Assembly: GCA_017633255.1 (NCBI GenBank)
Contig: JAGBPS010000019.1
Span: 1-64,000 of the forward strand
Reading direction: 5' to 3'
DNA length: 64,000 nt
Source of the DNA: Bacteroidales bacterium
GTDB lineage: Bacteria; Bacteroidota; Bacteroidia; Bacteroidales; WCHB1-69
Both the position numbers and the translations under genes were made by a program. Positions 24,345 to 57,985 of this stretch are shown here, in pieces; the first letter of the stretch is position 1, and each line of letters opens with the position of its first letter. Under the pieces are notes generated by a model that did no database searches, had not been told where the DNA came from, and was given only the letters and a program-made list of their open reading frames with translations.

Positions 24345-24415
24345 AATTTCTGATCACTGACCCCTGACCCCTGACCCCTAATCACTAACCCCTAAAACCT
24401 AATCACTAATCACTA
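24345..24415. repeat. Heptamer array (CCCCTGA / TCACTAA words)
   Basis: Runs of CCCCTGA, CCCCTAA, ATCACTA and AACCTAA words, mostly at 7-bp spacing, just before the terminator. The same words are at 2140-2190. Confidence 0.75.
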
Positions 24416-24420
24416 AAAAA

Positions 24421-27277: not shown

Positions 27278-30235
27278 ATGACCTTCCTCCGGCAACTGGC
27301 ACAAACCATTCTGCAACGCGACGATATCACGCTGAAAGACACGCTGATAGTGCTGCCTAACAAGCGTGCCCGGAGGATGCTGCAGCAAGAGCTGGCTGCA
27401 GGTATCTCGAAACCCTGCTTCTCCCCCACCATCTTCTCTATCGACGAATTCATCCACAAACTGTCGGATTACACCCTCTGCGATGACATCGAGCTGCTAC
27501 ATATCCTGTTTCAGGCCTATCAGCAGTTCGAGCATGCCCACAGCGAAAAGCTGGCGTCTTTCCTCTCGTGGGCTGAGACTTTCATCCACGATATCAGCGA
27601 GATAGACATGCAGTTGGCCGACGCCTCCAGGATTTTCGGAAACCTGTCGGACATCAAGGAGTTGGAAACCGTTTTCGGCCGAGAAACCCTCAGTCCTAAC
27701 CAACAGCGTTACCTGAAATTCTACAGCAGCCTGCACGAGCTTTACCTAGGTTTTAACAGTTTTTTAGACAAAGAAAAACTCGCTTACGAGGGCAAAATTT
27801 ACAAAGATGTGGCCGAACATTTGCTGGATTATGCCCCTAAATTCAAGTTCAAACGTTATATCTTCGCCGGCTTCCAGACCCTTTCGCCCTCCGAGATGGC
27901 CTTGGCACAATACTACCATCAGGAGCATCAAGCTGAATTCTATTTTGATATTGATGATTTCTATCGCAGCAACTACACGCCTTTTATCAATATCCTTCAG
28001 AATAAACTGAAATTAAAAGACCTTAACTGGATTCATCAGGATTATGCTTCCATCCCGAAAGAGATTTTCCTGGTGGGAGCCTCCAAATCGATGAACCAGA
28101 TTTTCTATGCCATCGAACAACTGAACCGAATTGAAAAGGAAGAAGGCAGCCTCAACAACACCGTGCTGGTTTTTGCCGACGAGAAACTGCTCATTCCTTT
28201 CATCCACTGCTACGACTGCAGCAAGGCCAACCTCACCATGGGCTACCCTCTGGCGGCCACCCCAGCCTACGCCCTGCTCGCCAGCCTTATCAGCAGCGCC
28301 CGAAATGGACAACGCTTCCAAAGCATACAGCAGCAAGACGAAATGCTGTACTACCACCGCGATGTGTTCAGCTTCTTCAGAAACCCGCTGATTGTCAACT
28401 ACCTGTTCAGCAACGCCCAACAGCACGGGGAGTTCATCAAAGACCTGCTGGCACTCAACAGCATCCTTTATCCCCGCCAAGCCTTGCGTTTCCCGACCAA
28501 TGGCACCCTCGAAGCCCCCGAATTTCCTGATTTATCAGGTACTCCCGCAGATATGCTCCAGTCGGTCACCAGTTTCTTCGAACTGCTGCAATCACAGTGC
28601 ATACAGGCAGGTACTTCTTCTTTCGACCAGCACTGTCTCAGCATGATTATCGACGGACTGCAGGAGGCCATGCGCTATCTGCAACATTTCCATACCGACA
28701 CCACCGACTTGGAATCCGCTGTTTTCATCATCAACCACCTCATCCAGCGCAACTCCATCCCCCTCAAGGGAAGTCCGTCGGAAGGCCTGCAGATTATGGG
28801 TTTGCTGGAAACCCGAACTCTGGATTTCAAGAACGTCATCATGCTGTCGGTCAACGAAGGCACCTTGCCGGCAGGCCGCAGCTCCAACTCGCTGATACTG
28901 CACGAGGTGAAGCGCTATTTCGACCTTCCTACCTACCAAGAGAAAGACACGGTTTACGGCTATCACTTCTTCCGTCTGCTACAGCGCGCCGAGCAGATCC
29001 ACATTCTGTACAATACCGACTCGGACACCAGTCTGGCGGAAAAAAGCCGTTTCCTGAAGCAGCTTGACTTTGAAATCAACGCCCAGCATCTAAGTAACAT
29101 ACAACTCCATGAGCTGGTGCTGCCCACCATGGTCAGCTCGGAACAGCAGAACAAAGAATTCAGCATTGCGAAGACCGATGCCATTGTGGAGAAACTGCTC
29201 AACATGGAATACACCTATTCCCAACTGAACAACTACCTCAACTGTCCGCTCCAGTTCTACCTCAAGCACGTCGCCAAAATAGAGCCTGCCGAGGACATCT
29301 CCGAAAGTGTGGAGCAGAAACTCATCGGCAACGCCATCCATGATCTGCTGGACGAAATTGGCCAACAACTGATTGACAAACCGACCGCCTACCCACAAAT
29401 TATTGGCGAAAGCCTGCGAAATATCGACGATGCCGTGGAAAAAGCCATGCGGAAAGCCGTTCTCCAAGAACATAAAAACAGCGACGAGAACAAGATCTAC
29501 ATCGACCTCAGCCGGGGGAAGAGCTTTCTGGCCACCGAAGTCGTCAAGAAGGCGGTGACAAGTTACCTCAACAAGCTGAAAGAGGATTTCGAACAGGCTG
29601 AAAAAGAGCAATACAGCTTCAAGATTCTGGCCACAGAGCAAAAGCTGACCGCCACCGTCAATGTGGACAAACAGCCTATAAAGCTGAAAGGCTTCGCCGA
29701 CCGCATCGACCTGCGGAAAGGTCTTGTCACCCTCCTGGACTACAAAACTGGCTATGTGGACGACAAAGGACTGAAATGCGATGACCTGTCCGACATCTTC
29801 ACCGGTACGGAACACAAACAACTGCTGCAGCTGCTGATGTACGCCTACCTTTTTGACAGGGGTCAGGAGACAGGGGACAGGGTACAGGATACAGGATACA
29901 GTGATCAGGGGACAGCTAATGAAATCCAAAATCCAAAATCCCAGTGCCCCAAAAACTGTCAACTGTCAACTGTCAACTACTCCTGCGGTATCATCAGCTT
30001 CCAGCGCCTGTACAAAAAAGAGCAGCACGAGCTCTACCCCACTTTTCAGTTATCAGGGGACAGCAACCAGGAAACAGGGGACAGGATACAGGGGACAGAT
30101 AGTGAAATCCAAAATCCAAAATCCCAGTCCCCAAAAATCTGTCAACTGTCAACTGTCAACTGTCAACTCGGAAAGCCTCATCACACCCGAAATACTGGAA
30201 CTTTTCGAAAGACATCTCATCAATCTGCTGCGTGA
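27278..30235 (+). CDS. AddB-like helicase/PD-(D/E)XK nuclease, frameshifted near the C-terminus
   Basis: The visible frame gives 985 residues. It starts MTFLRQLAQTILQRDD with an inactivated-helicase-like N-terminal part (VLPNKRARRMLQQEL). A UvrD-C-like middle follows (NVIMLSVNEGTLPAGRSSNSLI), then a RecB-type nuclease domain with YSQLNNYLNCPLQFYLKH, GNAIHDLLDE, KGFADRID and TLLDYKTGY as the catalytic D..DxK. The family acts in recombination repair. Two ~115-bp heptamer-repeat insertions lie at 29862-29984 and 30050-30172. They read as the related peptides NEIQNPKSQCPKNCQLSTVN and SEIQNPKSQSPKICQLSTVN. After the second, the frame runs into an early stop at 30235, while the true C-terminus continues in another frame to 30341. 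The product is truncated or phase-variable, or the assembly is wrong. Confidence 0.75.
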   Translation: MTFLRQLAQTILQRDDITLKDTLIVLPNKRARRMLQQELAAGISKPCFSPTIFSIDEFIHKLSDYTLCDDIELLHILFQAYQQFEHAHSEKLASFLSWAETFIHDISEIDMQLADASRIFGNLSDIKELETVFGRETLSPNQQRYLKFYSSLHELYLGFNSFLDKEKLAYEGKIYKDVAEHLLDYAPKFKFKRYIFAGFQTLSPSEMALAQYYHQEHQAEFYFDIDDFYRSNYTPFINILQNKLKLKDLNWIHQDYASIPKEIFLVGASKSMNQIFYAIEQLNRIEKEEGSLNNTVLVFADEKLLIPFIHCYDCSKANLTMGYPLAATPAYALLASLISSARNGQRFQSIQQQDEMLYYHRDVFSFFRNPLIVNYLFSNAQQHGEFIKDLLALNSILYPRQALRFPTNGTLEAPEFPDLSGTPADMLQSVTSFFELLQSQCIQAGTSSFDQHCLSMIIDGLQEAMRYLQHFHTDTTDLESAVFIINHLIQRNSIPLKGSPSEGLQIMGLLETRTLDFKNVIMLSVNEGTLPAGRSSNSLILHEVKRYFDLPTYQEKDTVYGYHFFRLLQRAEQIHILYNTDSDTSLAEKSRFLKQLDFEINAQHLSNIQLHELVLPTMVSSEQQNKEFSIAKTDAIVEKLLNMEYTYSQLNNYLNCPLQFYLKHVAKIEPAEDISESVEQKLIGNAIHDLLDEIGQQLIDKPTAYPQIIGESLRNIDDAVEKAMRKAVLQEHKNSDENKIYIDLSRGKSFLATEVVKKAVTSYLNKLKEDFEQAEKEQYSFKILATEQKLTATVNVDKQPIKLKGFADRIDLRKGLVTLLDYKTGYVDDKGLKCDDLSDIFTGTEHKQLLQLLMYAYLFDRGQETGDRVQDTGYSDQGTANEIQNPKSQCPKNCQLSTVNYSCGIISFQRLYKKEQHELYPTFQLSGDSNQETGDRIQGTDSEIQNPKSQSPKICQLSTVNCQLGKPHHTRNTGTFRKTSHQSAA
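29862..29984. repeat. Heptamer mosaic element inside the AddB-like gene, copy 1
   Basis: CAGGAGA / CAGGGGA / ACAGGAT words, then ATCCAAA twice, then CCCAGTGCCCCAAAAA, then ACTGTCA three times. It sits between LLMYAYLFDR and SCGIISFQRLYKKEQ, two segments that are adjacent or nearly so in the family. It keeps the frame. Confidence 0.8.
30050..30172. repeat. Heptamer mosaic element inside the AddB-like gene, copy 2
   Basis: Same order of words as copy 1 (ACAGGGG / ACAGGAT, ATCCAAA twice, CCCAGTCCCCAAAAA, then ACTGTCA three times). It breaks the frame. Loss of one 7-bp ACTGTCA unit would join the upstream frame to the downstream one. Confidence 0.8.
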
Positions 30236-30341
30236 CATCATCAACCCTGAACTACCATTTGTCCAGACCGATGATGAAAACCACTGCCGCTACTGTGACT
30301 ACGCCGCCATCTGCAAAAAGAGCACCACACAGGATGAGTAG
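30173..30341 (+). pseudogene. Displaced C-terminus of the AddB-like nuclease
   Basis: In the frame two bases away from the main ORF (codons at positions divisible by three) the sequence reads ESLITPEILELFERHLINLL, then INPELPFVQTDDENHCRYCDYAAICKK. The CxxC pattern with a PF(V)QTDDExxCxxCDY(x)xICxR motif is the usual end of Bacteroidota PD-(D/E)XK nucleases of this type, so this stretch belongs to the gene at 27278. Its stop TAG (30339-30341) lies inside a REP palindrome. Confidence 0.75.
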
Positions 30342-30365
30342 AGACGTTTCCTGAAACGTCTCTAC
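30338..30365. repeat. 28-bp REP-like palindrome, TTTC-core subtype
   Basis: GTAGAGACGTTTCC TGAAACGTCTCTAC, perfect but for the centre. It provides the stop codon of the displaced nuclease C-terminus. Confidence 0.85.
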
Positions 30366-33942: not shown

Positions 33943-34053
33943 CGTTAAGACGTGGAAACGTGAAGATGCTCACTTCGTTCGCTCGTTAAGACGAAAGAAA
34001 ATCATCTTAACGTCTTGACGTCTTGACGAATGCACGCAGTGCATGTCTTTACG
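33943..34053 (+). repeat. Octamer-arm mosaic element between hdrA- and hdrB-like genes
   Basis: GTTAAGAC, GTGGAAAC, GTGAAGAT, CTCACTTCGTTCGCTCG (33969-33985), GTTAAGAC, spacer, GTCTTGAC words and hairpin ATGCACGCAGTGCAT (34030-34044). It runs opposite to the flanking genes. Confidence 0.8.
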
Positions 34054-34058
34054 GATCA

Positions 34059-35120
34059 TCACACTTTCAGCACGGTCGGCTTATCCGGCATAGCCAACAC
34101 CTTCCCCGAAACGCCTTTGTATTTCTCGTCGGGATTGTAGGCGATGCCGATTTTGTCCATCAGCGTCTCGCACTGCACCTGATGCAGCTGCAAACCCAGT
34201 GTCCACGGGTCATAACCCAGCAACAGGCCTGTCAGTTCCTCGTAAGTGAGCACCGGAATACCATAGCCGTCTTTGTCGTAGGTCTTGTGTTCCAGCTCGG
34301 AGATGGTATACTGCCATTTGTCCAGAAACATGCCGCAACCCGGGCAGTTGGTGAGGATAAAATCGGGCTCGTAAGGTTCCATCGACTCGAATTTCTTCTT
34401 GGAGTTGGCCACCGAGTAACCCCGGTTTTCCTGCACCAGATACTGGCGGAAGCCGAAGCCGCAGCAATGGCGTCTTTCGGGATAGTCAATCACCTCGCCG
34501 CCCCAGGCCTCAATCATGCCCGAGAGCACGTGCGGGAACTCCGACTTGCCCACACCCTTCTCCGGGAAAATCTTGGCATAATGGCAACCCACATGCTCCA
34601 CGGCCCGCAAAGGTTTGCCCGTGAAACGGTTCACCAGCTGGTACTTCATCTTAGGCTTCAAATCATTTCTGAATTTGAAGATAATATCAGACGGATGGGC
34701 GATATTCTTGGGCAGCTCGAACTCACGGCCGGTAGCCTCGCGCAAGTATTTACGGGCCTGCTCCAGCAAGGCGGGATCATGTTTCCACATCTCCACCATC
34801 TCTGTGAACACACCGAACGAGGTGACACACGAGGGCACATAATTTTCGTAGCCGTCCTCCGTCATCAGCGAGAACAAACGGGCCACCACCGTCATCGTGG
34901 TCTCAATGGGCACCACATCCGAATGATAGCCGATACCCGTACAGGTGTGCTGGTTGGCCTCGTCCTTAATGTCCTTGCCCAGCTCTTCCCGCATGATTTT
35001 CAGGAAAGCGGCCTCAGAGCCCGGAAAGAAGGTCTGACGGATACAGCTTCTTTCGTAGAAGTAATGGTCATCCGCAATCTCCTTTTGATATTCGTTCCAG
35101 AAACGTTTTTGTATTTGCAT
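34059..35120 (-). CDS. HdrB-like subunit with CCG cysteine-rich domain
   Basis: 353 residues. The C-terminal half has the CCG signature (CX~38CCGX~35CxxC) of the non-cubane [4Fe-4S] cluster in HdrB: HVGCHYAKIF, RRHCCGFGFRQ and TNCPGCGMFL. An N-terminal region carries scattered Cys residues (ERSCIRQTFFPG, QHTCTGIGYHSD, VPSCVTSFG) in place of a second canonical CCG domain. In HdrB this site cleaves disulfides; the physiological substrate here is unknown. It is encoded between the membrane HdrD-like gene and the HdrA-like gene. Confidence 0.8.
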   Translation of the reverse strand: MQIQKRFWNEYQKEIADDHYFYERSCIRQTFFPGSEAAFLKIMREELGKDIKDEANQHTCTGIGYHSDVVPIETTMTVVARLFSLMTEDGYENYVPSCVTSFGVFTEMVEMWKHDPALLEQARKYLREATGREFELPKNIAHPSDIIFKFRNDLKPKMKYQLVNRFTGKPLRAVEHVGCHYAKIFPEKGVGKSEFPHVLSGMIEAWGGEVIDYPERRHCCGFGFRQYLVQENRGYSVANSKKKFESMEPYEPDFILTNCPGCGMFLDKWQYTISELEHKTYDKDGYGIPVLTYEELTGLLLGYDPWTLGLQLHQVQCETLMDKIGIAYNPDEKYKGVSGKVLAMPDKPTVLKV

Positions 35121-35204
35121 GTTGGTTACTTCGTGTTAATGACTTCGTGTTTATTATTGCATGTTAATGACTTCGTGTTGGCGAGTTGATGCTTGGACTA
35201 TCCT

Positions 35205-46589: not shown

Positions 46590-46594
46590 GTTAG

Positions 46595-46765
46595 TGTTTA
46601 GGGGTTAGGGGTTAAAGAATAGGGGTATGAGCTATGAGGTATGAGGTATGAGGTATGAGCTATGGGTATGAAGTTATGAAGTTAGAGTTTAGTATTTAAT
46701 GTTTAGTGTTATAGTTGAGGGGTTATAGGTTTTTGGATTTTGAATTTTGAATTTTGAATTTTGGA
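46595..46765. repeat. Heptamer mosaic element (GAGGTAT / GGGGTTA / TTTTGAA)
   Basis: Successive runs of three different 7-bp words: GGGGTTA, then GAGGTAT / GAGCTAT (six or so), then TTTTGAA (three). This fills most of the gap between trmB and the ABC transporter. No promoter box was recognised in it. Confidence 0.75.
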
Positions 46766-46817
46766 TTATAAATCAGTATTAATCAATATTAATTATTAAT
46801 TGTTAATTGTTTATGTC

Positions 46818-57629: not shown

Positions 57630-57785
57630 CGGGGTTAGAAGGTGAGAAGGTGAGAAGGTTAGAAGGTGAGAAGGTTGATAGGATTATAGGATTACAGGAT
57701 TACGGGATTATGAATTTAGGATTTTGAATTCTTTTCTACTAACACCTAATCCCTAACCCCTATTTGTCAACTTTCAGTTTTCAGT
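57630..57785. repeat. Heptamer/octamer mosaic element
   Basis: GTGAGAAG / GTTAGAAG octamers, then AGGATTAT / AGGATTAC / GGGATTAT octamers, then ATTTTGAA, CTAACCCC, and TTTTCAG / TTTCAAC words. It fills the gap between xseB and the methyltransferase. Confidence 0.75.
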
Positions 57786-57787
57786 TT

Positions 57788-57985
57788 TCAACTTTCAGTT
57801 TCCATGATTTTCGCAATTTCCGCTTCGGTTTTGGTCAGCTTGTCCTTGCATAATTTGATGAGTAGCGTGCAACGCTTGATTTTGTCGGACAACTCATCCA
57901 CTGGAATGTCTGCATTTTCCATTTCACTGACGATTTGTTGTAATTCCGCCAGGGCTTCGGTATAGGTAATCGTTTCTTTTGCCAT
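57788..57985 (-). CDS. xseB: Exodeoxyribonuclease VII small subunit
   Basis: 65 residues, the usual size. ETITYTEALAELQQIVSEMEN followed by VDELSDKIKRCTLLIKLCKDKL matches the family pattern (xxY..A...L..Iv..LE...l.ldel....+....l...C...L). It forms ExoVII with XseA, which degrades single-stranded DNA. xseA is not adjacent in this window, whereas it usually lies directly upstream. Own promoter at 58001-58008. Confidence 0.85.
   Translation of the reverse strand: MAKETITYTEALAELQQIVSEMENADIPVDELSDKIKRCTLLIKLCKDKLTKTEAEIAKIMETES

Follow-up and report, generated by a model that had tools for sequence, protein, structure and literature searches.

Heptamer-repeat inserts kept in the reading frame of conserved genes in a Bacteroidales genus, with frame loss at one site in addB

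Does a seven-base repeat inside the gene for a recombination nuclease act as a switch, has it inactivated the gene, or is it part of something more general? The question is raised by an addB-like gene in a 64,000-nucleotide stretch of Bacteroidales DNA (the window), which is contig 23 in a genome (G000) of 2.28 Mb and 44 contigs. A preliminary description of the locus had proposed either a switch controlled by slippage or an inactivation of recent date. Close relatives of G000 are rumen and hindgut Bacteroidales metagenome assemblies, and nine genomes of the genus, one per species, were compared.

The gene lies on the forward strand. Its upstream frame (27278-30235, with ATG at 27278) encodes helicase-like and nuclease domains through the second of two inserts. 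Pfam detects PDDEXK_1 (PF12705; E 8.6e-24) in two pieces: profile positions 3-182 in this frame, and 195-247 in the open reading frame 29853-30341. The same profile is unbroken (3-247) in the ortholog from G002, as the C-terminal PD-(D/E)XK nuclease domain of AddB. The G000 protein has a profile match to AddB in the PDB (3u44_B; E 1.6e-11), and the best Foldseek matches to the model of the intact ortholog are AddAB chain B (E 2.9e-25). The protein scores 77 bits against NCBIfam addB_alphas (cut-off 486.5), and so is not that equivalog. A candidate for the AddA partner, an AddA-like gene of the UvrD family (UvrD_C, 1039-aa open frame), is present at about 74 kb of contig C18, unlinked to addB.

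Both inserts interrupt the nuclease domain, and both are built from heptamer words in a common order. Insert A (29862-29978) reads (GGRACAG)n, AAATCCA two to three times, CCCAGTGCCCCAAAAA, and CTGTCAA three times, its arrays being detected by TRF; the host frame continues through it. The host DNA that follows (29979-30049) encodes a strand and turn, YSCGIISFQRLYKKEQHELYPTFQ, conserved in the genus members compared. Insert B (30050-30170) repeats the word order of A, ends in CTGTCAA four times, and has a length of 1 mod 3, with loss of the host frame. The array at the break (30139-30168) holds 4.3 perfect units (TRF: period 7, 100% match). The two inserts can be aligned over about 110 bp, and their presence is far beyond chance: ACTGTCAACTGTCA occurs four times in the window, each time in an addB insert, where 100 shuffles gave an expectation of 0. 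The sizes first reported need slight revision: the inserts are indeed alike in length, at about 117 and 121 bp, but the gap between them is about 71 bp rather than 65. Likewise, three ACTGTCA units had been ascribed to each insert; A has three CTGTCAA units, but B has four (three ACTGTCA plus one that follows T). By inspection, neither insert contains a dyad or palindrome; they consist of tandem direct heptamers.

The loss of frame after insert B is as first described. Homology of the upstream frame stops at about 30169; beyond insert B some 21 further codons, out of frame with the host, are read before a stop whose last base is 30235. The conserved AddB C-terminus (30171-30341, forward strand) lies in the +1 frame: a helix, a CxxCx5C motif, and a TAG stop. 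The accompanying arithmetic, in which 7-bp unit changes restore the frame, is also correct: the 169 nt of the B segment leave a remainder of 1 on division by 3, as does a single 7-bp unit. (The TAG stop itself is carried by a GTAG-type palindrome, GTAGAGACGTTTCCTGAAACGTCTCTAC, read from the sequence at 30338-30365. Bacteroidetes are absent from the groups for which a survey lists GTAG repeats, namely Proteobacteria, Cyanobacteria, Chloroflexi, and PVC [PMC3733652].)

What would the truncated protein lack? Four cysteines (C656, C1001, C1004, and C1010 in G002 numbering) are at least 90% conserved in 53 homologs, and the nuclease-motif residues E787, D808, D821, and K823 are conserved in AddB. 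The cysteines are assigned to the Fe-S "staple", which is described as essential for the structural integrity of AddB (PMC3466216). In G000 the last three of the four come after insert B, out of frame. With three of its four Fe-S ligands gone, AddB would be expected to have a nuclease domain that is unstable or has no activity.

One reading of such a gene is an old, fixed inactivation that left addB a pseudogene in the species. The broken frame and the missing cysteines fit it, but about 950 upstream codons are intact, the addB of the sister species G004 is intact, and the AddA-like gene is still in the genome. Moreover, the C-terminal 53 codons give a dN/dS of 0.14 between G000 and G001, both of them frame-broken, versus 0.115 in the core, with 10 synonymous and 7 nonsynonymous differences (P 0.0016 against neutrality). 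This pattern indicates that purifying selection still acts on the AddB C-terminus, and a break in such a gene should be recent, reversible, or an assembly fault. A long-standing pseudogene is therefore very improbable, as the selection on the C-terminus and the intact relatives both speak against it.

Comparison across the genus places the locus in a wider setting. Inserts occupy the same two loops of addB in six species (G000, G001, G002, G004, G006, and G008), and G006 and G008 have a third insert further upstream. The addB genes of the outgroup species G005 and G007 have no inserts, and addB was not found in G003. Unit numbers and word content vary between species, around a broadly constant order: GGRACAG, then AAATTCA/AAATCCA or AATGCAC, then CCTGAAA/CCTGTAA, then CTGTCAA. 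Insert A of G000 is closer to insert B of the same gene (score 80) than to its own orthologs (at most 64), and insert B is closest to the B insert of G002 (score 94). This suggests that heptamer elements are copied between one another.

The frame behaves differently at the two sites. Measured as the distance between conserved codons, the site A region is a multiple of three in each of the eight species. At site B the same is true of four species among the six that bear inserts, and the distance is 1 mod 3 in G000 and G001. In gene trees, G000 is sister to the in-frame G004 with support of 1.0 for the NRPS-type synthetase and more weakly (0.75) for the AddB core, with G001 outside, and neighboring genes place G000 in a different, weakly supported topology. 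Under the first arrangement, the frame was either lost twice or lost once and regained. By this phylogeny the frame state at site B is one that has changed at least twice within the clade, and the losses in G000 and the non-sister G001 were apparently independent. On and off alleles are thus far found between species, each represented by one genome; a search for further strains of the G000 species turned up only other species.

Two further explanations concern the assembly and translation. The first is a faulty assembly or consensus, in which the number of units at B was miscounted in the metagenome and the real gene is in frame. Inserts A and B share long identical stretches, and heptamer arrays are over-represented at the left ends of contigs (4/40 versus 1.4%), both of which could favor such an error. 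Against this, arrays of 25-30 bp fall far below a typical read length, and G001, assembled separately, is in the same +1 state. Nor is the assembly generally ridden with frameshifts: of the roughly 38 genes of the window that were compared with syntenic relatives, addB alone has a clearly broken frame. A miscount at B is thus somewhat unlikely, though to be taken seriously. The second explanation, programmed ribosomal frameshifting, would have the C-terminus made despite the shift. G000 and G001 do need the same +1 shift, and the upstream frame of G001 runs into a TAA just where the insert ends. However, inspection of G000 and G001 revealed no slippery site or stop context common to both, and related species encode the product simply in frame; such a mechanism is hardly credible here.

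If site B is judged against comparable inserts elsewhere, it stands alone. Ten insert sites were compared in six unrelated genes, and 47 of 49 species copies are in frame; both exceptions are addB site B, in G000 and G001. Since species copies are not independent, the fairer figure is per site: nine of ten are in frame in all species, with a chance of 3.6e-4 at one-third per site. Besides addB, the hosts encode an NRPS-type synthetase, a C39 peptidase-ABC exporter, and NlpC/P60, ResB/CcsA, and Vsr proteins, with copies in frame. For all five, this holds in every insert-bearing ortholog compared. Where host-gene orthologs exist in the outgroups, the insert is missing or short. In both the synthetase and the exporter, one species differs by exactly 7 aa, that is, 21 bp or three heptamers.

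Part of this comparison requires care. In-gene arrays were called from open reading frames, so contrasting their open frames with those of intergenic arrays is partly circular; the G000 NlpC/P60, ResB/CcsA, and Vsr loci avoid the circularity because they were picked by DNA pattern. The notion that such arrays are open in all frames, making the frame irrelevant for stops, was also considered and rejected as a general rule: outside the host frame, most multi-word inserts meet stops.

Two of the host genes merit separate description. The Vsr mismatch endonuclease (L027:1111-1755, reverse strand) carries its insert in frame; the insert is shorter in G003 and absent in G005 and G007. Vsr is thus a second DNA-repair gene that serves as host. 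In orthologs of the NRPS-type synthetase (L169-L175), one loop carries heptamer-encoded residues in G000, G003, G006, and G008, and palindrome-like residues (VETFHETSL or VETFPETSL) in G004 and G001. Two types of element therefore appear to exchange at a single loop.

Where would the inserts fall in the folded protein? An AlphaFold2 model of the intact G002 AddB, built on a 53-sequence alignment, has a mean pLDDT of 84. Its only long segments with pLDDT below 50 are residues 865-897 (insert A) and 928-961 (insert B). The first separates the QxxxY helix from a core strand, and the second precedes the last long helix. Because the in-gene inserts occupy loops or linkers and remain open in the host frame across species, the protein very probably includes them as loops of low complexity (...NPKSQ...NCQLSTVNCQLSTV...); translation here is deduced from conservation of the frame. 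Frame-policed, very probably translated heptamer inserts are well supported as a general phenomenon, and this genus-wide, normally in-frame coding feature extends beyond the preliminary account.

These observations suggest a model in which slippage or unequal exchange lengthens and shortens the heptamer elements, supplemented by copying between elements, and in which purifying selection retains only those inserts whose length is divisible by three. A length change at site B would have put the C-terminus out of frame in G000 and, apparently independently, in G001, although the gene is otherwise maintained intact in this lineage. The frame loss would most likely be recent and unselected, and, as a single 7-bp step restores the frame, reversible in principle. 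We consider this account, of coding inserts held in frame by selection with a recent and unselected loss in G000, the probable one, with confidence somewhat above even. Neither a target duplication nor a mobilizing gene for the elements was identified.

The main biological rival is a selected switch: slippage of the 7-bp CTGTCAA unit at site B would toggle the AddB nuclease in some cells, thereby varying recombination, repair, or the degradation of phage DNA. Mechanically it is possible, since the unit length is not divisible by 3, the array holds four perfect copies, and their number sets the frame; in addition, two non-sister species are off at site B with C-termini intact. There is precedent in the neuO gene of Escherichia coli, in which a coding repeat of AAGACTC heptanucleotides drives phase variation and the full-length protein requires a number of units that is a multiple of 3 (PMC13001214). 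The resemblance includes the heptapeptide period, but neuO arrays have 3 to 53 units, lie near the 5' end, and have had their switching measured; the addB array has only four, is placed toward the 3' end, and is known from assemblies. Allele switching at a 6-bp repeat in Salmonella mutL (PMC2955026) likewise shows that a repair gene can be a slippage target, with a short tandem repeat as a possible switch of mutability. There the gene and unit are different, and a 6-bp change removes residues in frame without a frame shift. Moreover, site B is ON in four of six species and all other inserts checked are in frame. Frame maintenance over ten sites in six genes, in two of them through three-unit steps, argues for selection for the ON state. 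A selected switch is accordingly a doubtful reading of site B. In sum, of the two proposals first made for this locus, a slippage switch is workable yet unproven, and an inactivation, if real, is very unlikely to be old.

How widespread are the elements? Repeat statistics were drawn from 464 kb of G000 and about 380 kb of relatives. In the former, arrays of period 7 (43) and period 8 (39) dominate, with 0-4 for each other base period (period 14 being a harmonic). Although 90% of the 464 kb is called coding, 36 of the 43 period-7 arrays lie outside gene calls. G005 and G007 have almost no arrays. Three consecutive CTGTCAA units occur in seven of nine genus genomes, one of 95 other genomes of the family, and some 10 among 395 from the phylum as a whole, a rarity that rules against a widespread Bacteroidota feature. 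As judged from these genomes, multi-word heptamer elements are shown to reside in a subclade of the genus, mostly between genes.

Other repeats accompany them. Octamer arrays (AGACGTGG) start at the stop codons of four genes (window 6055, 10782, 18316, and 25812), three of which share the ending TTCAT(C/T)AA(A/G)CGT-TAA. A 14-bp tandem repeat (35128-35179) encodes the divergent C-terminus of the open reading frame 34023-35189, past the part that matches relatives. TRF marks long stretches between genes in which several heptamer and octamer words are mixed, at 24353-24416, 46590-46811, and 57633-57801. Y1 transposases of the REP-associated type are present in all nine genus genomes, with three in G000; the one inspected (G000:C30:84341) has other palindromic repeats alongside, not heptamers.

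Repeats that enter coding sequence are known from other bacteria. Rickettsia palindromic elements enter protein genes without disturbing the frame (reviewed in PMC10969869). Like the inserts described here, which have six hosts, they are small repeated elements that add a peptide segment to many unrelated proteins. They differ as palindromes of about 150 bp; the Bacteroidales inserts have no palindrome and are arrays of heptamer words, with a content that changes from species to species. GTAG/CGTC REPs also occur inside genes, many of them repair genes; in two Xanthomonas species, recB carries them at roughly the same position (PMC3733652). Here the parallels are repeats in genes of the RecBCD/AddAB type, repeated use of one site, and additional encoded residues. 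However, REPs are stem-loops of 20-40 bp often linked to RAYT transposases, and the heptamer inserts have neither a palindrome nor a known mobilizer. Finally, heptamer arrays such as TAACTGA and GGGAATC/GGGGATT are described from Beggiatoaceae, Cyanobacteria, Bacteroidetes, Xanthomonas, and Nostoc (PMC4679880, PMC4692102). They share the 7-bp tandem unit, a phylogenetically sporadic distribution, and a mainly intergenic location with occasional copies in open reading frames; in contrast, the inserts of this genus join several words in fixed order, and sit inside domains of conserved enzymes with the frame kept across species. A search of open-access text found no earlier description of multi-word heptamer elements that stay in frame within conserved enzymes across a genus. 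The addB-type inserts are best filed with protein-coding repeat insertions (Rickettsia elements, and REPs inside recB), built in this case from multi-word heptamer arrays.

Together, these results describe simple-sequence DNA turned into very probably translated, species-variable loops in conserved enzymes, with the frame seemingly policed by selection through three-unit steps. They thereby offer a natural experiment in the entry of repetitive DNA into proteins. If the switch were real, translated heptamer inserts would let a gut Bacteroidales genus alternate between complete and truncated versions of its main nuclease for double-strand-break recombination, and perhaps of other proteins as well; repair, DNA uptake, or the destruction of phage DNA would then vary within a population. 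The lone site to escape the rule belongs to a recombination nuclease, which makes phase-variable repair in gut Bacteroidales directly testable.
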